64,000 nt of DNA from Comamonas testosteroni ATCC 11996 (GTDB taxonomy: Bacteria > Pseudomonadota > Gammaproteobacteria > Burkholderiales > Burkholderiaceae_C), in NCBI RefSeq assembly GCF_000241525.1, contig NZ_AHIL01000002.1, positions 62,001 through 126,000 on the forward strand. Direction: 5' to 3'. Every line of letters starts with the position of its first letter. Positions within the stretch are counted from its first letter, which is position 1. Positions 14,583-47,030 of the stretch are shown here, piece by piece. The notes below the pieces were generated by a model, which saw only the letters and a program-made list of their open reading frames with translations, made no database searches and was not told the origin of the DNA. The position numbers and the translations under genes are program-made.

Positions 14583-15262
14583 TGCCATTCCTTGGGCAAA
14601 GAGAAACTGGTCAGGCGAGGATCGGGATTGGCCTGCCAGGGAATATCGGCCAGCAGCGGCGCGCCAAGCCGTCCCAGCTGGTTGCGCAGCCAGTCCATGT
14701 TTTCCTCGGGCACCAGCATCTGCGGCTCCACACGGCTGGCCACCCAGCCCGCCAGCGGCAAGCCGGCGGCGCGAATCGCCTCGGCGGTCAGCACCGCATG
14801 ATTCAGGCAACCGAGCTTGAGGCCCACCACCAGCACCACTGGCAGCTGCAGCGCCACGGCCAGATCGGCAATACACAGAGTCTCGGACAACGGCACGCGC
14901 CAGCCGCCCGCGCCTTCGACCACCACGACATCGGCCTGCGCCGCCAATTGCCGGTAGGCGTCCAGAATCGGGGCCAGCGTCACCTCCACGCCCGCGCGCC
15001 GGGCCGCGATATGCGGCGACATGGGGTCGGGCAGCAACACGGGGTTGTCCAGCGCTGCCGGCACGGCCAGCGTGGAGGCCGCGCGCAAGGCCACCGTGTC
15101 TTCGTTGACCCAGCCGCCCTGCCCGTCGGGATCGGCGCCTGCGGCCACGGCTTTCATGCCCACCACGCGCGGATGATGGGCTGCCAGTGCGTGCAGCAGC
15201 GCACAGCTGGCCAGGGTCTTGCCCACACCGGTATCGGTGCCCGTGACGAAACAGCCGATCAT
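14579..15262 (-). CDS. bioD: Dethiobiotin synthetase
   Basis: 227 residues. ATP-dependent ring closure of 7,8-diaminopelargonate to dethiobiotin. The P-loop is at the N-terminus (MIGCFVTGTDTGVGKT), followed by GMKAVAAGA, VVVEGAGGWRVPL and LKLGCLNHAVLT. ATGA overlaps join it to bioA upstream and bioF downstream, so the three are translationally coupled. Confidence 0.96.
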   Translation of the reverse strand: MIGCFVTGTDTGVGKTLASCALLHALAAHHPRVVGMKAVAAGADPDGQGGWVNEDTVALRAASTLAVPAALDNPVLLPDPMSPHIAARRAGVEVTLAPILDAYRQLAAQADVVVVEGAGGWRVPLSETLCIADLAVALQLPVVLVVGLKLGCLNHAVLTAEAIRAAGLPLAGWVASRVEPQMLVPEENMDWLRNQLGRLGAPLLADIPWQANPDPRLTSFSLPKEWQ

Positions 15263-16602
15263 GCTTTTCCCTTCTTCGCGGCAAGCTCCGCTTCCTGCTG
15301 CAAGGTGGTGTTCAGCGCGGCCAGCGCGGCCTGACCCAGGTGGGTGATATCGGCATCGTCCAGCACATAGGGCGGCATGCAGTACAGCGTGCGTCCTATG
15401 GGGCGCAGCAGCAGACCCAGGTCCAGCGCCGCCTCGTGGTAGCGCTGTGCAAAGTCCGGCAAGGAGGTATCGATGTCCCAGGCCCAGATCATTCCCTGCT
15501 GGCGCGCGTTGCTGACGCGGGGGTGAGCATTCAGCCCGGCGAATGCCGCACTGATTTTTTCGGCCAGCTGCCGGTTGACGACCAGTTGGTCCAGCTGCTC
15601 GAACAGCTCCAGCGTGGCCACGGCAGCGCGGCAGGCCAGCGGGTTTCCGGTATAGGAGTGCGAGTGCAGAAAGCCGCGCGCGGCATCGTCGTCATAAAAA
15701 GCGGCATAGACCTTATCGGTCGTCAGCACGGCAGACAAGGGCAGCGTGCCGCCCGTCAAGCCTTTGGACAGGCAGATGAAGTCCGGCCTGATACCGGCCT
15801 GCTGATGGGCAAACAGGCTGCCGGTACGGCCAAAGCCCACGGCGATCTCGTCCACCACCAGATGCACGGAATAGCGATCGCACAGCGCCCGGGCCAGGCG
15901 CAGGTATTCGGCGTCATGCATGGCCATGCCGGCTGCGCACTGCACCAACGGCTCCAGAATCAGGGCAGCAGTCTCCTGGTGATGCGCTTGCAACCAGGCC
16001 TCCAGGCCCTTGGCTGCGCGGCGCGCCACATCGGCAGCGGTTTCGCCAGGTCGGGCCTGACGGGCATCGGGGCTGGGCACGGTGGCAGACAGACGCACCA
16101 GAGGGCCGTAGGCATCGCGAAACAGCGCAATATCTGTGACCGACAGCGCGCCTACTGTCTCGCCGTGATAGCCACCGGCCAGACCCACGAAGCGGTGCTT
16201 GGCCGGATGCCCCTGGTTGCGCCAGTAATGGGCGCTCATCTTCAGTGCGATCTCGGTGGCCGAAGCGCCGTCGCTGCCGTAGAACGCATGGCCCAGGCCC
16301 GTCAGACCGGCCAGGCGCTCGGACAGCTCGACCACGGGAGCGTGGGTGAAACCGGCCAGCATTACATGATCGAGCTTTTGCAACTGCTCGGTCAGCGCCG
16401 CCCGAATATGAGGATGCGAGTGACCGAACAGATTGACCCACCAGGAACTGATGCCGTCCAGATAGCGGCGGCCATCGATATCCACCAGCCAGGGACCGAC
16501 GGCATGGTCGATGGCAATCGGCGGTGCGGCTTCGTGCCGCTTCATCTGTGTGCAGGGATGCCAGACATGGCGCACGCTGCGGCCGGCAAGGCTGTGGTCC
16601 AT
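15259..16602 (-). CDS. bioA: Adenosylmethionine-8-amino-7-oxononanoate aminotransferase
   Basis: 447 residues from the ATG at 16602 (AGGAG eight bases ahead); the frame is open further upstream but overlaps the 131-base gap to bioB. Class III aminotransferase that uses SAM as amino donor: VWHPCTQMK start, GISSWWVNLFGHSHP, GSDGASATEIALKMS, GGYHGETVGALSVTD, VDEIAVGFGRTG, PLP lysine in ICLSKGLTGGTLPLS. The SSWW motif separates BioA from other class III enzymes. Overlaps bioD by 4 bases. Confidence 0.96.
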   Translation of the reverse strand: MDHSLAGRSVRHVWHPCTQMKRHEAAPPIAIDHAVGPWLVDIDGRRYLDGISSWWVNLFGHSHPHIRAALTEQLQKLDHVMLAGFTHAPVVELSERLAGLTGLGHAFYGSDGASATEIALKMSAHYWRNQGHPAKHRFVGLAGGYHGETVGALSVTDIALFRDAYGPLVRLSATVPSPDARQARPGETAADVARRAAKGLEAWLQAHHQETAALILEPLVQCAAGMAMHDAEYLRLARALCDRYSVHLVVDEIAVGFGRTGSLFAHQQAGIRPDFICLSKGLTGGTLPLSAVLTTDKVYAAFYDDDAARGFLHSHSYTGNPLACRAAVATLELFEQLDQLVVNRQLAEKISAAFAGLNAHPRVSNARQQGMIWAWDIDTSLPDFAQRYHEAALDLGLLLRPIGRTLYCMPPYVLDDADITHLGQAALAALNTTLQQEAELAAKKGKA

Positions 16603-30651: not shown

Positions 30652-31458
30652 TCAGCTTCGAGCGAAGGCCAGCACGGCCTGCAGCAGACGCTGCATGGTG
30701 GGCTGGATGCGCGCCGCGACCTCGGGCAGGTAGTCGAACGGCATCTGCTCCTGCATATAGCTGGACTGCGTCATCTCCAGCTGCACGGCGTGGAAGCCCT
30801 GCTCCGGCTGACCATAGTTGCGCGTGATGAAGCCGCCCTTGAAGCGGCCATTGAGCACGCTGGTGTGACCCGGTGCCTGCCGTGCAATGTCCAGCAGTTG
30901 CTGGGCCAGCGCCGGCGCGCAGCTCTTGCCGTCGGCGGTTCCCAGGTTCAGGTCGGGCAGCTTGCCCTCGAAAAAGCGCGGCAGCACCGAGCGGATGCTG
31001 TGCGCATCCCACAGCATGGCCACGCCATGCTGGCTCTTGATGCGATCGAGTTCGGCGCGCAGCTGCGCATGATAGGGCTGCCAGTAGATTTCGCGGCGGC
31101 GCGCGACTTCCGCCTCGTCGGGTTCGAACGCCTTGCTCGCATACAGGGGCTTGCTGTCAAAGCCGTCAACCGGGCACAGCCCGGTCACGCTCTGGCCCGG
31201 ATAGAGGCTGGCGCCATCGGGCGGACGATTCAGGTCGATGACATAGCGCGAATGCGTGGCGACCAGAATGGATGCGCCCAGTGCCTTGGCGAAGTCGTAG
31301 AGCTGCGGCATGTGCCAGTCGGTGTCGTGGACTTCGCGCCCTTCGGGCGTGAGCCTGGCCGCAATGTCGGCCGGCACATGGGTGCCGGTATGCGGCATGG
31401 AAATCAGCAGCGGTGCCGTACCCTGGTGAAAGACAAAGGGGGCGATGGCTTGGCTCAT
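30652..31458 (-). CDS. hutG: N-formylglutamate deformylase
   Basis: 268 residues from the ATG at 31458. Hydrolyses N-formyl-L-glutamate to glutamate and formate, the last step of the five-step histidine pathway. FGase-family marks: PLLISMPHTGTHVP, HDTDWHMPQLYDFA, THSRYVIDLNRPPDG, MLWDAHSIRS and GGFITRNYG. The enzyme is unrelated to arginase-fold formiminoglutamases, which also carry the name HutG. Last gene of the hut string, 41 bases after hutF. Confidence 0.94.
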   Translation of the reverse strand: MSQAIAPFVFHQGTAPLLISMPHTGTHVPADIAARLTPEGREVHDTDWHMPQLYDFAKALGASILVATHSRYVIDLNRPPDGASLYPGQSVTGLCPVDGFDSKPLYASKAFEPDEAEVARRREIYWQPYHAQLRAELDRIKSQHGVAMLWDAHSIRSVLPRFFEGKLPDLNLGTADGKSCAPALAQQLLDIARQAPGHTSVLNGRFKGGFITRNYGQPEQGFHAVQLEMTQSSYMQEQMPFDYLPEVAARIQPTMQRLLQAVLAFARS

Positions 31459-31499: not shown

Positions 31500-32924
31500 T
31501 CAGGCGTTCTGCAGCAATGCCTTGCGGGTCTGCACAAAGCCTTGCTGGGCGACTTCGTGCAGCGCATGGCGACCTGCCTGCACACGCTGCTGGCCGCGAA
31601 CCCAGACGTCGGCAATGGCCGAAGTGCGATGGCTGGCAAACACATGGGCCGCATGGCCGCTGTCGGCAGGCAGCCCGTTGAGGGCCACATGGCGGGCATC
31701 GAGCACCACGAAATCCGCCTGCTGGCCCACGGCCAGACCGGCAATGGCGCGGCCCGACGCCTGGGCACCGCCGGCCACCGCCTGCAAGGTCATGGAGGTC
31801 GCCACCTGGGGCTGAGCGCCGCCGCCAAGCACATTGCGCTGGCGCAGGTTCAGGCGCTGGCTGTATTCGAGCATCAGCAGCTCTTCGGCGGCATTCACCG
31901 AAGCATGGCTGTCCGAACCAATGCCCCAGCGTCCGCCATGCCTGAGCCAAGTCGGCATGTCGAAAATGCCGTCGCCGAGATTGGCTTCGGTGGTGGGACA
32001 GATGCCGGCCACGGCAGCGCTGCGTGCCGCGCCAGCATATTCCTCGGGCGTCATGTGCGTGGCATGGATCAGGCACCAGCGCGCATCGACGGGTGCATGG
32101 TCGAGCAGCCATTGCACGGGGCGCTGGCCGCTCCAGGCCAGGCAGTCATCCACCTCCTGGGTCTGCTCGGCGATATGGATGTGCACCGGTGCCTTGGGCA
32201 GCATGGCGTGCAGGCCCGCGAGCGCAGTCTTGAGGCTGTCCGGGGGCACGGCCCGCAGCGAGTGCGGAGCCAGGCCCAGAGCTGCCTGCTGCGCCCTGGT
32301 CACGGGCTCCAGATGCTGCAGCAGGCCGAGCATATTGTCAGTGCTGCGAATGAAGCGGGCCTGATCCTCTCGAGGCGGCAGGCCCCCGAAGCCGCTGGTC
32401 TGATAGAGCACGGGCAGCAAGGTCATGCCTATGCCGGTCTTCTGCGCCGCACGCAGCAGCGCCAGAGACAGGCTGGCATCGTTGGCATAGGGCTTGCCGC
32501 CCACATCATGGTGCACATAGTGGAACTCGCACACCGAGGTGTAGCCCGCCTCCAGCATTTCCAGGTACAGCCAGGTCGCGATCGCCTCCAGGGCCTCGGG
32601 CGTCATGCGATTGGCAAAGCCGTACATCAGCTTGCGCCAGCTCCAGAAGCTGTCCTGCGCCTGACCGCGGAATTCGGTCAACCCGCCGAACGCGCGCTGG
32701 AAGGCGTGCGAGTGCAGATTGGGCATGCCGGGGATCAGCGGGCCGGCCGCCTTGGCGGCTTCCTCCGCCTCTCCGGCCTCGCCGCTTTGCGGGTCCAAAC
32801 CGGTCAGCACTTCGGTCAGCTGGCCGCTCTCGTTCCAGCTCAGCAGGACGTTGCGCGCCCAGCCTGTGGGCAGCAAGGCGTCTGCGGCAAACAAGGTACG
32901 CGAAATGGATGAGGATGCAGTCAT
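31500..32924 (-). CDS. hutF: Formimidoylglutamate deiminase
   Basis: 474 residues, amidohydrolase superfamily. Converts N-formimino-glutamate to N-formylglutamate and ammonia. Metal ligands: NLHSHAFQRA (HxH), IHIAEQTQEV, CLIHATHMTPEE and GIGSDSHASVN (Asp). Presence of hutF with this hutG shows the five-step route of Pseudomonas type rather than direct formamide release. A Glu/Ala-rich loop (residues 46-60) is locally low in complexity. It follows the HisC-like gene by 42 bases. Confidence 0.95.
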   Translation of the reverse strand: MTASSSISRTLFAADALLPTGWARNVLLSWNESGQLTEVLTGLDPQSGEAGEAEEAAKAAGPLIPGMPNLHSHAFQRAFGGLTEFRGQAQDSFWSWRKLMYGFANRMTPEALEAIATWLYLEMLEAGYTSVCEFHYVHHDVGGKPYANDASLSLALLRAAQKTGIGMTLLPVLYQTSGFGGLPPREDQARFIRSTDNMLGLLQHLEPVTRAQQAALGLAPHSLRAVPPDSLKTALAGLHAMLPKAPVHIHIAEQTQEVDDCLAWSGQRPVQWLLDHAPVDARWCLIHATHMTPEEYAGAARSAAVAGICPTTEANLGDGIFDMPTWLRHGGRWGIGSDSHASVNAAEELLMLEYSQRLNLRQRNVLGGGAQPQVATSMTLQAVAGGAQASGRAIAGLAVGQQADFVVLDARHVALNGLPADSGHAAHVFASHRTSAIADVWVRGQQRVQAGRHALHEVAQQGFVQTRKALLQNA

Positions 32925-32966: not shown

Positions 32967-34127
32967 TCATGCAGTCACGCGCTCAGTCTGCTCCATCGCA
33001 GCGAGCAAAGCCAGAACAAAACGCGCGTTGTCCTTCTCGGTACCTATGGATACGCGCAGAAAATTCTCGAAACCGGGCTCCTTCCAGGGCTTGACGATCA
33101 CGCCCTGTCTGAGCAGCGCCTCGGTCACCGGCGCATTGGGACGGCCCAGGTCGAGAAACAGGAAGTTGGCTACCGAGGGCGCAATGCGCAGGCCTTGCAG
33201 CGGCTGGCCCGGCGCTGCCAGCGCCAGCAGCTGCCTGCGCAGGTCCTCGCGCAGCGCCACCGTGGTCGCCACGCCGCTGCGCATGTGCGCAGGATCGTTC
33301 CAGGCCGCCAGCGCCGCGCGCTGGGCCGCCATGTTCACGTTGAAGGGCGAGCGCACCTTGTCCATCAGGCCCACCAGCTCGGCGCTGTCGGCCATGCCGT
33401 AGCCCACGCGCAGACCGGCCAGGCCCCAGGCCTTGGAGAAGGTGCGCAGCACGATCCAGGGGCCGACCCGCGCATCCAGCATGACCAGCACATCGGGGTA
33501 GTCATCGTCGTGCAGAGCGTATTCGTAATAGGCCTCATCCACCACCAGCACGGTGTTAGCGGGCGTGGCCTCCAGCACCTGCGCAAACTGCGCCGTATCC
33601 ATCATGCAGCCCACGGGGTTGGACGGGTTGGGCAGGAAGGCGATCTTGGGGGCCTTGGCCACGGCAGCGCACCAGGCGCCCAGATCGAAGCCCAGCTGCT
33701 CGTTCAGCTCCAGGAGTTCGACCTCCGCGCCCATCATCTTTGGATAGATTTCGTGCAGGCCAAACACGGGACGCTGGGTCACAACCAGATCGCCGGGTGC
33801 GAGAAAGACCTCGCAGAGAATCTTGATCAGGTCTTCCGAGCCGTCGCCGAACACCAGGCGCCCGGCGGGCAGCCCCGTGCGCTCGGCAATGGCTTCGCGC
33901 AAGGCCGTGCAGTTGGCATCGGGATAGTTACCCACATCGTTGGCCACCTCGGCAATTGCCCGGCGCACCGAGGCGCTGGCGCCAAAGGGGTTCTCGTTGC
34001 TGGCCAGTCGCGCGATATCGGTCACGCCATAGCGCGCCCGCACCGCTTCATTGGACAGGCCTGCGTTGTATGCGGGCAGCGGGCGAACCTGGGCACGGGC
34101 CAGCGAGGCCACCAGGGAATTCGTCAT
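32967..34127 (-). CDS. HisC-like PLP aminotransferase within the hut operon
   Basis: 386 residues, class I/II aminotransferase of the histidinol-phosphate type: RLASNENPFGAS, FGDGSEDLIKILCEVFL, NPSNPVGC, VVDEAYYEYA, PLP lysine in TFSKAWGLAGLRVGYG, LRVSIGTEKDN at the end. No other his biosynthetic gene is present. Its start overlaps the stop of the FAD-linked oxidase (ATGA), so the two are made together, and both lie between hutI and hutF. I infer a catabolic role: transamination between imidazolyl-pyruvate and histidine. Biosynthetic HisC or aromatic aminotransferase activity remains possible. Confidence 0.85.
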   Translation of the reverse strand: MTNSLVASLARAQVRPLPAYNAGLSNEAVRARYGVTDIARLASNENPFGASASVRRAIAEVANDVGNYPDANCTALREAIAERTGLPAGRLVFGDGSEDLIKILCEVFLAPGDLVVTQRPVFGLHEIYPKMMGAEVELLELNEQLGFDLGAWCAAVAKAPKIAFLPNPSNPVGCMMDTAQFAQVLEATPANTVLVVDEAYYEYALHDDDYPDVLVMLDARVGPWIVLRTFSKAWGLAGLRVGYGMADSAELVGLMDKVRSPFNVNMAAQRAALAAWNDPAHMRSGVATTVALREDLRRQLLALAAPGQPLQGLRIAPSVANFLFLDLGRPNAPVTEALLRQGVIVKPWKEPGFENFLRVSIGTEKDNARFVLALLAAMEQTERVTA

Positions 34128-35512
34128 AGATCAAACACCTTTCCGGGATTCATCAGGCCCAGGGGATCGAGGGCCAACTTGATGGCTCGCATCGCCGCCA
34201 GCTCTGCGGGCGTGCGGCTGTTGCTCAGATAAGGCTTTTTGTGCAGGCCGATGCCGTGCTCTGCGGAGACGCTGCCCTGCATCTCGCCCACGATGCGGTA
34301 GAGAAGCTCCTCCACCTGCTCGCATTCGCCGTTGACGGTCTTGCCATCCACCGAGACATGGAGATTGCCGTCGCCCACATGACCGAAGTACAGCGCCTGG
34401 TGACCAGGCCAGCGAGCGGCAAAGGCCTGCATGCAGGCTTCGGCAAAACGGCCGATGTCGGCCTGGGGCAGGCTCACATCGAAGTTGATTGCGGGGTGCA
34501 TATTGTTGTTGAGCTCGGCCGGTGCCTCGCGCAGCTTCCACAGCTGCTGCACCTGGGCGACCGACTGGGCCACGATGGCATCGAGCACCTCGCCGGCTTC
34601 CATGGCCTCCTCGAGCACCTGCTGCACATCGCCTTGCAGCTGCGCCTCGTCCTTGCCGTCCACATTGATCAGGGCCAGCAAGGGGTAACGCTGTTCAAAA
34701 GGCGCAGCGAGCTTGAGCCAGGCCATGGAGGCCTGCACAAAGCTGTCCCACATCAGCTCATAGGCCGCGACACTGTTGCCGAAGCGCGATTGCATGCGCT
34801 TGAGCACGGCCAGCGCCGAGTCGAAATCGGGCATGGCCACCAGCGTCGTGGCCGTGGCCTGGGGCGCGGGACGCAGGCGCAGCAGCACGCGCGTGATGAT
34901 GCCCAGCGTGCCTTCGGCACCGATGAAGAACTGCTTGAGGTCGTAGCCCGTGTTGTTCTTGATCATGGGGCGCAGCATGGGCAGCACCGTGCCGTCGGCC
35001 AGCACCACTTCCAGGCCCAGCACCTGCTCGCGCATCATGCCGTGCTGCAGCACGCCGTTGCCGCCCGCATTGGTGGAGACATTGCCGCCGATCTGGCAGC
35101 TGCCGCGAGCGCCGAGATCGACGCCGAACACCATGCCGACATCGACGGCCGCCTCCTGCACGGCTTGCAGGGTGACGCCGGCCTGCACCTGCATCAGTCC
35201 GGTCTTGGCATCGATGTCCTCGATGCGGTTCATGCGGTCCAGCGACAGGGCCACTGCCCCCTCCATCGGAACCGCAGCACCGGCCAGGCCGGTCAGACCG
35301 CCCTGCGGGACCACCGCAATCCGGTGGGCGCTGCACAGACGCATGACGGCGCTGACTTCCTCCGTGGTGCGTGGGCGCACCAGCGCCAGCGGCTGCTGAG
35401 GCGGCGTGCCGCTCCAGTCGGTGCGGCACCGCTCGGGCGTGTCCGTGCCGCGCAGCGCGACATCGGCGCCCAGGGTGGAAATCAGTTCATTGAGAAATTG
35501 TTCGTGAGACAT
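34124..35512 (-). CDS. FAD-linked 2-hydroxyacid oxidase/dehydrogenase (GlcD/DLD family) in the hut operon
   Basis: 462 residues from the ATG at 35512. PCMH-type FAD-binding domain at residues 35-215 (VVPQGGLTGLAGAAVP, GSCQIGGNVSTNAGGNGVL, FFIGAEGTLGIITRVLLRLRP) and the C-terminal oxidase domain with the metal/substrate histidines in YFGHVGDGNLHVS and SVSAEHGIGLHKK. Relatives oxidise D-lactate, D-2-hydroxyglutarate or glycolate and reduce the quinone pool or ETF. It starts 25 bases after hutI and overlaps the HisC-like gene by 4 bases. The context suggests imidazolyl-lactate as substrate; D-2-hydroxyglutarate dehydrogenase is the main alternative. Confidence 0.88.
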   Translation of the reverse strand: MSHEQFLNELISTLGADVALRGTDTPERCRTDWSGTPPQQPLALVRPRTTEEVSAVMRLCSAHRIAVVPQGGLTGLAGAAVPMEGAVALSLDRMNRIEDIDAKTGLMQVQAGVTLQAVQEAAVDVGMVFGVDLGARGSCQIGGNVSTNAGGNGVLQHGMMREQVLGLEVVLADGTVLPMLRPMIKNNTGYDLKQFFIGAEGTLGIITRVLLRLRPAPQATATTLVAMPDFDSALAVLKRMQSRFGNSVAAYELMWDSFVQASMAWLKLAAPFEQRYPLLALINVDGKDEAQLQGDVQQVLEEAMEAGEVLDAIVAQSVAQVQQLWKLREAPAELNNNMHPAINFDVSLPQADIGRFAEACMQAFAARWPGHQALYFGHVGDGNLHVSVDGKTVNGECEQVEELLYRIVGEMQGSVSAEHGIGLHKKPYLSNSRTPAELAAMRAIKLALDPLGLMNPGKVFDL

Positions 35513-39410: not shown

Positions 39411-40883
39411 TCAGCCGGCTTGCACGGCGTAAGTGGTAGCGGCAAAGCTCTTGCCTGCGTCCGTGGGCGCAGCTTGAACCTGGCTGGGGTAAATCATCTG
39501 GCTGGGCACGTTCATGCTTCTCCTGGCCAGTGGGTAGTAGACGAGCGAGGTGACGATCAGGCTCACGATCCACGAGATGTCGGCCCCGTTCATGGCCTTG
39601 GCCAGCGGGCCCACATACATGGCCTGGTTGATGAAGGGAATCTGCACCGCAACACCCATCACATAGCAGGACAGGGCCGTCCAGTTGTAGGCGCCATAGC
39701 GGCCCTGGCTGTCGTAGAGCGCCGGGATGTCCACTTTTTCCTTGGAGACCAGGTAGTAGTCCACCAGATTGACGGCGCTCCAGGGAACGAACACGGTGAG
39801 CAGCAGCAGCACGAAGTTCTTGAACGTGGCCAGGAAGTTGGAGCTGGCCAGCAGGGCCACCAGCACCGTCACCAGCACAAAGCCCAGGATGTAGAGCAGG
39901 CGCGATGTCGCGGTGAACTGCGTTTTCCGGTTGAAGGCGCTGACCGTTGTCAGCACGGTCATGAAGCCGCCATAGGCATTGAGGCAGTTCACGGTGAGCT
40001 TACCGGTGACGATGACCAGGTAGATCACCACGGCCAGCGGGCCGGCCAGCTGGCCCATGAAGCCGACCTGATTCTTGATGAAGTTGGCGCCCAGGGCTGC
40101 CACCAGCACGCCGAAGGTCATGGCCAGCTGCGAGCTGATGACGCTGCCGCTGAAGGTGGTCCAGAAGGTGGCAGCCGTCGAGGTCCTGGTGGGCAGATAG
40201 CGCGAATAATCGGCCACATAGGGGGCAAACGTCATCTGCCAGCCTGCCGACAGGGCCATGGCCGTGAGAAAGCTGGCCCAAGTGAAAGGCTTCTGGCCGA
40301 ATGCCGAGACCACATCGAACTGGTGGCACAACTGCCAGGCCAGATAGCCAAAGCCCAGAATGCCGACCACGGTGGAAATGCGCCCCACCACATGGATGAG
40401 CCGGTAGCCCACCACGGCGACCAGGGCCGTGAGCGCGCCGAAGATGATGATGCCGGCCGCTGGGCTGTGAAAGCCGAACATCAGATTGATGGCCTGGCCC
40501 GAGAGCACGGTGCCCGTGGCGGCGAAGCCCACATACATCAGGATCACCAGCACCAGCGGCAGGGCCGCGCCCTTGACGCCGAACTGCACGCGGCTGGAGA
40601 TCATCTGGGGCAGACCCAGGCGCGGCCCCTGGGCCGAGTGCAGCGCCATGACGATGCCGCCGAGAATGTTGCCGATCAGCAGGCCGATGATGGCGGTCAT
40701 GGCTTCGGCACCGAACACCACGGCCAGAGCGCCGTCCACCACCGCCGTGATCTGCATGTTGGCACCGAACCAGAGGGTGAACTGGCTGGAGGGCGTGCCG
40801 TGGCGCTCGCTCTCCGGAACCATGTCGATGGTTCTGCTTTCGATGGCGCCAGAGGAGCCCAGCGTTGCTGTATCAATACTCAT
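39411..40883 (-). CDS. NCS1 family permease (cytosine/purine/hydantoin type) of the hut locus
   Basis: 490 residues, twelve membrane helices, nucleobase-cation-symport-1 family: [75 protein letters not shown]. Imports small N-heterocycles with a cation. As the first gene of the hutU transcript, behind a HutC-like operator, it is a likely histidine or urocanate uptake system, as proposed for similar permeases in pseudomonad hut loci. Cytosine use cannot be excluded by sequence, but the context argues against it. Confidence 0.9.
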
Positions 40884-41005: not shown

Positions 41006-41028
41006 CTTTTCTAATCCAAACAAACCCT

Positions 41029-41745
41029 ATGTCGCGAACCGATACCACCGCCGCCGTACCTGCGTTCCAGCGCATCAAAGACCATGTGCTGCAGCAGATC
41101 CACAGTGGCGTATGGCAGGAAGGCCAGGCCATCCCCAGCGAGGCCGCGCTGGTCAAGCAGTTCAATGTGGCGCGCATGACCGTCAACCGCGCGCTGCGCG
41201 AGCTCAGCGACGAAAAGACGCTGACGCGTGTCCAGGGCTCGGGCACTTTCGTGGCCCAGCAGAAGTACCAGGCCACCCTGGTGGAGCTGCGCAATATCGC
41301 CGACGAGATCGCGGCCCGCGGCCACCGCCATCGGGGGGAGCTGCAGCGGCTCGAGCGCTGCAAGGTCGACACCGCCCTGCTGCGCCAGTTCGAGCTGAAC
41401 GCCGCCCCCCATCTGTTTCACTCCGTGGTCGTGCACTTCGAAAACGATGTCCCCATCCAGGTCGAAGACCGCTATGTGAACCCGGCTGTGGCTCCCGACT
41501 ATCTGAGCCAGGACTTTGCAAGCCAGACGCCGAATGCCTATCTGGTGCGCGTGGCTCCGCTGCAGGGCGTGAATTTCTCCATCGAAGCGAGCATGCCCAC
41601 GGCCGAGGTCGCGGATCTGCTGCGCATGGAAACCTCCGAGCCCTGCCTGGTGCTGCGCCGCCGAACCCGCTCCCAGGGCCAGGTGGCCTCGGTTTCGGCC
41701 CTGTGGCACCCGGCATCGCGCTACCAGTTCGCAGGCAGCTTCTGA
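41029..41745 (+). CDS. hutC: Histidine utilisation repressor HutC (GntR/UTRA)
   Basis: 238 residues. GntR winged helix at residues 12-75 (IPSEAALVKQFNVARMTVNRALRELSDE), then a UTRA ligand domain (residues 95-235; HFENDVPIQVEDRYVNPAVAPDYLSQDF, CLVLRRRTRSQGQVAS). HutC binds urocanate as inducer and represses hut promoters. Divergent from the permease-hutU transcript and convergent with hutH. The VEDRYVNP motif is typical of true HutC, so I keep the name for this copy, though the second paralogue at 43465 has the same motif. Confidence 0.93.
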   Translation: MSRTDTTAAVPAFQRIKDHVLQQIHSGVWQEGQAIPSEAALVKQFNVARMTVNRALRELSDEKTLTRVQGSGTFVAQQKYQATLVELRNIADEIAARGHRHRGELQRLERCKVDTALLRQFELNAAPHLFHSVVVHFENDVPIQVEDRYVNPAVAPDYLSQDFASQTPNAYLVRVAPLQGVNFSIEASMPTAEVADLLRMETSEPCLVLRRRTRSQGQVASVSALWHPASRYQFAGSF

Positions 41746-41838
41746 CCCGCCGCCCCGGCAAGCGCTGCCGGAATGCCGCCCCGCCGCGGCGAGAGCCGCT
41801 ACTGCCCGATGCTTGCGGCGTGACGACATGGCGCAGGC

Positions 41839-43464: not shown

Positions 43465-44232
43465 TCAGCCGCCGTGCACTGAATCGGTTCGGAAACGGCT
43501 ACCGAGTCGGTAGCGCATGCCTGGATGCACGCAATGCACCCAGGTGATCGGGACGCCGCGCAGCCAGGTACGGCGCGTGAGCATCAGGCAAGGCTGGTCA
43601 AGAGCCATCTGCAGCAGCCGGGCCTGTTCGGCCGTCGGCAAGATCGCATCGACCACATGTTCGATCTGGTCGTACTGCACATTGCGCACCAGATAGACCG
43701 AGGGCTGCACGGCAGAAAAGTCCTGGTCCATGAAGTCAGGGACCAGGCGGGGGTTCACATAGCGGTCTTCGATCTGGACCGGCAGCTCGTTTTCGAAGTG
43801 CACGCCGTGCAGGTGAAAGACCGAGGCGCCGACCGCGAGATCCAGTGCCGCCGCGACTTCGGGCGAGGCGGACTCGCGGCGCATATCGAGCAGCTCGAAG
43901 CGATGATCGTGGCCGCGCTGGGTGATCTCTTCACCAATATTGGCAATGCGCAGCAGGGTCGACTGCGGCTTTTCTTCGGCCACGAAGGAGCCTACCCCCG
44001 CCACACGCACGATCACGCCCTGCTCTGCCAGCTCGCGCAGCGCTCGGTTCACCGTCATGCGCGCCACGCCGAACTCGTTGACCAGCTCCTGCTCGGAAGG
44101 CACGCGCGCACCGGCCGCCAGCGAGCCGTCGCCGATCTTGCGCAGCACATGGTCCTTGACCTGCTGGTACAACGCGAGCGGCATCTGGGCTGCAGGAGCC
44201 GTTTTGCGCTGGGCAGGGTCTCGGACATTCAT
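43465..44232 (-). CDS. Second HutC paralogue (GntR/UTRA regulator)
   Basis: 255 residues. GntR helix-turn-helix at residues 20-85 (VPSEQELVNEFGVARMTVNRALRELAEQG) and UTRA domain with HFENELPVQIEDRYVNPRLVPDFMDQDF, close to that of hutC at 41029. It has an extra 14-residue N-terminal tail. It lies 10 bases after the ABC ATPase gene and is thus the last gene of the importer transcript, ahead of hutH. Having two HutC proteins may allow separate response to urocanate and another imidazole inducer. Which one binds which operator cannot be told from sequence. Confidence 0.92.
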   Translation of the reverse strand: MNVRDPAQRKTAPAAQMPLALYQQVKDHVLRKIGDGSLAAGARVPSEQELVNEFGVARMTVNRALRELAEQGVIVRVAGVGSFVAEEKPQSTLLRIANIGEEITQRGHDHRFELLDMRRESASPEVAAALDLAVGASVFHLHGVHFENELPVQIEDRYVNPRLVPDFMDQDFSAVQPSVYLVRNVQYDQIEHVVDAILPTAEQARLLQMALDQPCLMLTRRTWLRGVPITWVHCVHPGMRYRLGSRFRTDSVHGG

Positions 44233-46973: not shown

Positions 46974-47030
46974 TGTATATACAGGCTTACCCGAGCGCCA
47001 TAGTTACCGGATTTCACAGCTGTATAGACA
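46974..47030. promoter_or_regulatory. Pair of HutC-like operators upstream of the ABC importer
   Basis: TGTATATACA (46974-46983, perfect palindrome) and TGTATAGACA (47021-47030), 47 bases apart start to start, about 100-160 bases upstream of the substrate-binding protein gene. Paired sites about 4.5 helical turns apart could allow looping or a dimer of dimers. They link the importer to the hut regulon. Confidence 0.75.

Follow-up and report, generated by a model that had tools for sequence, protein, structure and literature searches.

The 64-kb stretch of DNA analysed here, referred to as the window (Comamonas testosteroni ATCC 11996, contig NZ_AHIL01000002.1, positions 62,001 to 126,000), contains a histidine utilization (hut) gene cluster. 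On the minus strand, its genes follow the order ABC (ATP-binding cassette) transporter, hutC, hutH, NCS1 permease, hutU, hutD, hutI, OX, AT, hutF and hutG. The two genes designated OX and AT, a flavin adenine dinucleotide (FAD)-dependent oxidase gene and an aminotransferase gene predicted to be co-translated, are the subject of this analysis. The initial annotation described them as two genes foreign to the standard hut set, located between hutI and hutF and overlapping as ATGA, and the coordinates and sequence bear this out:

34124-35512, minus strand: OX, FAD-dependent 2-hydroxyacid dehydrogenase (VAO/PCMH, GlcD/D2HGDH/LDHD subfamily), predicted D-imidazolyl-lactate dehydrogenase, 462 amino acids, PF01565 and PF02913
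32967-34127, minus strand: AT, HisC-like aminotransferase, predicted histidine:2-oxoglutarate (imidazolyl-pyruvate) aminotransferase, 386 amino acids, PF00155, NF003496, separate clade
34124-34127, minus strand: ATGA, overlap of the OX stop and the AT start, read from the sequence

OX starts 25 bases after the end of hutI, and AT is separated from hutF by 42 bases. Both flanking genes score above the curated cut-offs of their models. The Pfam domains also agree with the earlier description of the pair as a GlcD/DLD-type FAD oxidase and a HisC-type aminotransferase.

AT shares 98% amino acid identity with its homologue in Comamonas sp. RQ_Bin_4 and 95% with that in C. testosteroni JL40. It passes NF003496 (PRK05166) with 607.8 bits (cut-off 540) and misses the hisC model TIGR01141 with 269.3 bits (cut-off 276.55). 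The sole match in the genome above the TIGR01141 cut-off is a gene apart from AT (C52), surrounded by homologues of hisD, hisB and hisH, one hisA/hisF homologue and an edge piece of hisG (L139). The initial annotation also stated that the window has no his biosynthetic gene. This holds for the seven Escherichia coli queries used (hisG, D, C, B, H, A and F; hisI was not tried), which matched only AT itself, 25% identical to HisC. A 59-row tree places AT in a clade of 36 rows (support 100/98) that is distinct from the remaining HisC-like rows; long branches were flagged for L001, L110, Eco_HisC and L021. Several residues mark this clade in a 115-row alignment. K-x-W at the position of E. coli HisC R322 is present in 36/36 clade members and 0/79 others, H125 in 36/36 (Y in 78/79 others), and S169 and V172 (NPSNPVG for NPNNPTG) in 35/36 each and in none of the others. 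The AlphaFold model of AT has the HisC fold. Compared with HisC (TIGR01141; 1fg3, 3ffh, 8bj3), AT shares the fold and the pyridoxal phosphate-binding residues but differs in its separate clade, altered substrate-end residues and hut context. Judged from its sequence, AT is a member of a clade distinct from biosynthetic HisC. The assignment of AT as a second HisC was rejected because the genome has its own his cluster elsewhere and AT has a separate clade and a hut context.

OX belongs to the D-2-hydroxyacid dehydrogenases of the VAO/PCMH family, as judged from its domains, the His/His/Glu metal ligands, the catalytic His and the carboxylate-binding Arg. Among solved structures, 3pm9 and human D2HGDH (6lpn) come nearest to OX in both sequence and fold. 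The AlphaFold model confirms the fold, with a mean pLDDT (predicted local distance difference test) of 77.8 and several weak stretches. In human D2HGDH, R386, H434, H441, E475 and H476 are reported to bind the 2-hydroxy acid and metal, and T390, K401, Y432 and N443 the C5 carboxylate (PMC7801405). These positions were counted in 27 aligned OX-clade proteins, comprising the window protein, 19 relatives and 7 further members, near-duplicates included and the frame-disrupted copy of genome G003 left out. The five residues of the first set are kept in 27/27. At the second set, K401 is replaced by N and Y432 by F in all 27, T390 by A in 26 (T in one), and N443 by S or T in all 27 (S in 16 and T in 4 of the first 20). 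OX itself has A, N, F and S, with all four C5-carboxylate residues replaced. None of the 12 FAD-type partners compared has the K401 lysine. The paralogue C36:48 of the same genome retains the K and the N, and is a better D2HGDH candidate than OX on these residues. OX was thus rejected as D2HGDH, given the replaced second-carboxylate residues and this separate paralogue. It was also rejected as GlcD, with only 280.5 bits against TIGR00387 (cut-off 567.9), no adjacent glcE or glcF, and hut genes as neighbours. In the G003 copy (L116:7791-9200) the reading frame changes mid-gene, by either a sequencing error or inactivation.

OX shares the FAD domain, metal ligands, catalytic His and carboxylate Arg with D2HGDH (6lpn) and LDHD (8jdc), but its side-chain pocket is A/N/F/S-T instead of T/K/Y/N (D2HGDH) or W/S/V/I (LDHD). 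Mouse LDHD is reported to accept D-2-hydroxyacids with hydrophobic side chains, including D-phenyl-lactate, and no L isomers (PMC10589216). The neutral, hydrogen-bonding pocket predicted for OX would fit imidazolyl-lactate.

The remaining genes of the cluster and three predicted HutC-type sites are as follows:

30652-31458, minus strand: hutG, TIGR02017 364.8 bits (start inferred from the translation within a longer frame)
31500-32924, minus strand: hutF, TIGR02022 581 bits
35538-36800, minus strand: hutI, TIGR01224 469.9 bits
36940-37545, minus strand: hutD, PF05962 176 bits
37658-39379, minus strand: hutU, Pfam urocanase domains, TIGR01228 (start inferred)
39411-40883, minus strand: NCS1-type permease, PF02133
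41839-43398, minus strand: hutH, TIGR01225 664.1 bits
43408-43417, no strand assigned: HutC-type site TGTCTATACA, between hutC and hutH, one mismatch
43465-44232, minus strand: hutC, TIGR02018 300.1 bits
44243-46871, minus strand: ABC transporter (ATPase, permease and NMT1-type binding protein), upstream of hutC, PF00005, PF00528 and PF09084
46974-46983, no strand assigned: HutC-type site TGTATATACA, upstream of the ABC genes
47021-47030, no strand assigned: HutC-type site TGTATAGACA, upstream of the ABC genes, one mismatch

The published HutC consensus is given as TGTA-N2-TACA (PMC12977541). The window was scanned with at most one mismatch to TGTATATACA; shuffled sequences gave an expectation of 0.05 sites. 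The three sites found all lie within two hut control regions and nowhere else in the window. HutC-type sites were also detected in 14 of 24 other sequences, mostly directly before hutH. The hutC, hutH, hutU, hutI, hutF and hutG set, together with the predicted sites, marks the locus as a putative HutC-controlled hut operon. HutC would also control OX and AT; it would repress the operon, and urocanate would lift the repression.

The distribution of both genes was determined in 299 genomes of the family, including that of the window, by scoring the best few candidates of each genome. The AT clade was taken as 16 genomes above the NF003496 cut-off plus two at 526.5 and 512.1 bits (next 316), and the OX clade as 19 genomes at ≥537 bits plus the split G003 copy (next 445). 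AT is thus found in 18 and OX in 20 of the 299 genomes, and 156 have a hutU match (154 above the cut-off). The initial annotation had raised the question of the same pair in other hut operons. OX and AT occur together in 13 genomes, all beside hut genes, against 1.2 expected (hypergeometric p 3e-14, ignoring relatedness), so the co-occurrence is not due to chance. Every one of the 18 AT genes has one or more hut genes no further than 4 kb away on its contig, and hutU is present in 17 of these genomes (p 1e-4). The only hut gene seen near AT in G128 and G050 is hutG; the G050 stretch starts at a contig end. OX adjoins hut genes in 17 of 20 genomes, 13 with AT and four without it (G177, G190, G023 and G126). 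Five genomes have AT without OX. Each gene also lies beside hut without the other, and the two steps therefore appear to be modular, both tied to hut. The OX paralogues in the five AT-only genomes have ≤43% identity. Near AT in these genomes, queries with flavin mononucleotide (FMN) oxidase, iron-containing alcohol dehydrogenase and LDHD-type proteins revealed no hydroxyacid dehydrogenase replacing OX (whole genomes were not searched), and none was seen by eye in the frames of chosen gaps of L115, L119, L122 and L130. In G226, another aminotransferase gene (L119:2399-3562), 30% identical to AT, lies between hutH and hutU.

Eighteen named AT-clade loci (L004-L021) were found among the best 80 loci of a longer list, some from the same or close strains as genomes of the family sample. 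Core hut genes lie within 10 kb of AT in 14 of them. An FAD or FMN hydroxyacid oxidase lies within 10 kb of AT in 13, the other loci being L009 (an 8.5-kb contig), L011, L017, L019 and L020. C. testosteroni JL40 (L005) and Delftia acidovorans NBRC 14950 (L006) carry the OX-AT pair within hut. In acetic acid bacteria (L014 and L015), an LDHD-type oxidase gene and hutD come after AT, and a relative of the FMN oxidase lies no more than 8 kb away. An FMN oxidase adjoins AT in L012.

JL40 has a monocarboxylate-type gene of the major facilitator superfamily between AT and hutF (L005:4762-5991). Its best NCBIfam model is the SfMCT L-lactate transporter (182 bits, cut-off 320), and the hut cluster of L125 contains a 56% identical relative (14658-15713). 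This gene is a candidate for a hydroxy-acid uptake protein. In L011 (10001-14040), the AT-clade gene lies near 2-oxoacid dehydrogenase E1 alpha/beta type genes, a TonB receptor and a GntR-type regulator, and onward use of imidazolyl-pyruvate is possible there.

A sample of 398 genomes of the phylum yielded 14 AT-clade loci in 12 genomes at ≥432 bits (next 345). In 11 of the 14, AT has an OX or LDHD-type relative no more than 10 kb away, and hut or hutC matches were found in 10. L176 and L177 have a short-chain dehydrogenase/reductase (SDR) gene beside AT, and L177 also has a histidinol-dehydrogenase homologue and a zinc-containing alcohol dehydrogenase. In L177, L188 and L190, AT lies near hutC, a histidinol-dehydrogenase homologue, an alcohol dehydrogenase, an SDR and ABC genes, a set that looks like one for the use of histidinol or another imidazole alcohol.

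The Pfam scan of L178 showed a Rieske oxygenase, its reductase and an amino-acid-type ABC transporter in place of hut. A Rieske oxygenase and 2Fe-2S reductase pair lies near AT in L178, L186, L187 and L189, from a rhizobial-type genome, Aureimonas, Paracoccus and Shinella. The pair on pLM20P5 was published as vanillate demethylase (PMC4447125); near AT, such a pair may act on a histidine-related compound. In that paper, which concerns a Paracoccus plasmid, a D-lactate dehydrogenase and a histidinol-phosphate aminotransferase are listed separately from the HUT module (PMC4447125). An FAD oxidase adjoins the AT relative on this plasmid.

AT relatives with approximately 51-53% identity are encoded on plasmids of Klebsiella, Escherichia and Enterobacter; the plasmid AT relative passes TIGR01141 with 298.7 bits. 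The clusters of pKAM622_5 and pECO-6357 share the order hutC (divergent), hutF, hutD, ABC, hutH, hutU, AT, alpha-hydroxy acid oxidase and iron-containing alcohol dehydrogenase. hutI and hutG were not found in the plasmid-cluster stretches read (L184 and L185). The Klebsiella cluster has a perfect HutC-type site before hutH, upstream of hutU, AT and the oxidase gene. This oxidase belongs to the FMN family of L-lactate dehydrogenase (LldD) and is unrelated to OX. Like the window, the Klebsiella and E. coli plasmid clusters have AT, a hut context, HutC-type sites and a four-base overlap of AT with a hydroxyacid oxidase gene. They differ in gene order, with AT ahead of the oxidase gene, in the oxidase, which is of the FMN type (L acids by family) and starts with GTG, and in the iron-containing alcohol dehydrogenase gene that follows. 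The three-gene stretch from AT to this dehydrogenase was detected in 77 plasmid records, 63 of them with ≥80% of it in one place; 43 of the 77 plasmids are predicted to be mobilizable, 13 conjugative and 21 non-mobilizable. It is present in 28 of 5,426 E. coli genomes (22 with ≥80%), on plasmids only. The strongest evidence for a route from hydroxy acid to amino acid for histidine is that, in a different hut cluster, an unrelated oxidase is coupled to the same aminotransferase clade. The FMN L-type and FAD D-type oxidases predict an L branch on the plasmids and a D branch in the window.

Imidazolyl-lactate is made by fermenting and gut microbes. C. testosteroni and D. acidovorans are, we assume, the old Pseudomonas testosteroni and P. 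acidovorans. Hacking and Hassall are said to have purified the P. testosteroni histidine aminotransferase in 1975, which we take to be EC 2.6.1.38. A hut-borne AT is present in the source species of this activity (C. testosteroni JL40). In the P. testosteroni pathway, the aminotransferase presumably acts between imidazolyl-pyruvate and histidine, as proposed for AT. That pathway comes from the same species group as the window module and concerns the same kind of substrates, but it is known as activities. Its oxidising enzyme was possibly imidazolyl-lactate dehydrogenase EC 1.1.1.111, which we take to be NAD(P) (nicotinamide adenine dinucleotide (phosphate))-linked and specific for the L isomer. 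OX was not assigned to this entry, since it belongs to an FAD family with D-specific relatives; it could do the same job on the D isomer. The initial annotation had pointed to old reports on both Pseudomonas species. P. acidovorans is reported to degrade imidazolyl-lactate. For P. testosteroni, the title of Coote and Hassall (1973), on the degradation of histidine and imidazolyl-L-lactate, appears in the references of PMC9157411. Histidine transaminase has been described as an orphan activity, and the tested candidate TTE2137 has been disputed as an ordinary HisC (PMC4084501). A HutC regulon survey gives transporters and hut enzymes, and the word 'aminotransferase' is absent from its main text (PMC5343134). 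No assignment of genes for imidazolyl-lactate degradation in hut was found among the matches listed, in a search that left most older and subscription literature outside.

Together, these data suggest that OX and AT probably form a feeder module of the hut pathway that converts imidazolyl-lactate via imidazolyl-pyruvate to histidine, with OX serving the D isomer. This is the route proposed in the initial annotation. Comparative genomics supports it, and its substrates, isomer, direction and regulation in this strain still rest on inference. The assignment of AT is better supported than that of OX. OX would oxidise imidazolyl-lactate, most likely the D isomer, to imidazolyl-pyruvate, using FAD and a bound divalent metal, and AT would transfer an amino group from glutamate to imidazolyl-pyruvate, giving L-histidine. 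HutH, U, I, F and G would then degrade histidine to glutamate, and because the degradation ends in glutamate the amino donor would be regenerated. A wider proposal is advanced tentatively, with somewhat less than even confidence. In it, the AT clade would supply the gene so far lacking for histidine aminotransferase EC 2.6.1.38 and would stand at the centre of a mobile imidazolyl-lactate module. Oxidases that are unrelated to each other and opposite in stereospecificity (D-type with FAD, L-type with FMN, perhaps also SDR or iron-containing alcohol dehydrogenase) would have joined it independently, also on the Klebsiella and E. coli plasmids, and either isomer would feed hut.

Several observations weigh against the feeder route, and some of them favour other explanations. 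The 1973 title names the L isomer and the OX family is D-specific, as the caution on stereochemistry in the initial annotation rightly anticipated; the oxidising enzyme of the old work may therefore be another one. AT occurs without OX in G132, G226, G294, G176 and G107, and the phylum loci L176, L177 and L179 are also without OX. L011, L012, L013 and L017 have no core hut gene within 10 kb of AT. The HutC-type site was not found in 10 of the 25 sequences scanned, some of which stop short of the hutC-hutH region. AT could be the P. testosteroni histidine:2-oxoglutarate aminotransferase working mainly from histidine to imidazolyl-pyruvate, for overflow or nitrogen scavenging, with OX handling only a side product. 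The five AT-only genomes among 18, the reversibility of aminotransferases and the E1 genes of L011, which could take the keto acid onward, are consistent with this. We regard it as unlikely, considering that OX lies beside hut without AT in four genomes, as expected of an entry enzyme, and that HutH in the same operon makes a second exit for histidine unneeded. The pair could also assimilate a range of D-2-hydroxy acids, such as aromatic lactates, into L-amino acids, its place in hut reflecting histidine as one product. L178, L180, L181 and L182 (4/14 phylum loci) have AT and OX with no hut or hutC match in the stretch read, and G128 (L118), of the same genus, keeps OX-AT-hutG with no hutU match found. 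The 20 kb read around OX in G105, G194 and G053, where the pocket residues are the same, showed no hut gene, and the rhizobial plasmid homologues L199 and L201, outside hut, share A, N and F. The pocket is therefore no proof of an imidazole substrate, and the significance of Asn at the K401 position as an imidazole-specific mark is weakened by its presence in L199 and L201. Mouse LDHD, of the same family, is likewise reported as broad (PMC10589216). Against such a broad role stand the hut genes beside all 18 AT and 17 of 20 OX genes in the family and the HutC-type sites in the operon control regions, and it seems about as improbable as net transamination of histidine.

The two remaining explanations are much weaker. 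OX as a D-2-hydroxyglutarate (or D-malate) dehydrogenase recovering 2-oxoglutarate would agree with its nearest solved structures, 3pm9 and 6lpn, but the replacement of all four C5-carboxylate residues and the Lys and Asn retained in C36:48 make this very unlikely. The NF003496 name, the HisC fold and the histidinol-dehydrogenase homologues near AT in L013, L177, L188 and L190 would suit a second histidinol-phosphate aminotransferase or a histidinol-utilisation enzyme, with OX as a bystander. Among the points against the feeder route, AT has K at the E. coli HisC R322 position, and so does the HisC of its own genome (L001); K there was therefore dropped as a diagnostic mark of AT. R322 presumably has a role at the phosphate end of the substrate. 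With the genome's own hisC among his genes, AT below the TIGR01141 cut-off and hut genes beside AT in 18/18 family genomes, this explanation has hardly any likelihood.

If the feeder route is correct, genes would be attached to half-century-old biochemistry of the same species group, in which the aminotransferase is known only as an activity, and the textbook hut operon would gain an upstream entry step. The NCBIfam name 'histidinol-phosphate transaminase' would be corrected for the AT clade. The type of oxidase would predict which imidazolyl-lactate isomer a bacterium uses, and the plasmid-borne route would give Enterobacteriaceae a nutritional trait open to testing.

Between hutH and the NCS1 gene, a frame at 41011-41829 without a Pfam match shows 62-80% identity in two Comamonas loci and may or may not be a real gene. 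Homologues of the ABC transporter also lie before hutC in L115, L120 and L122.

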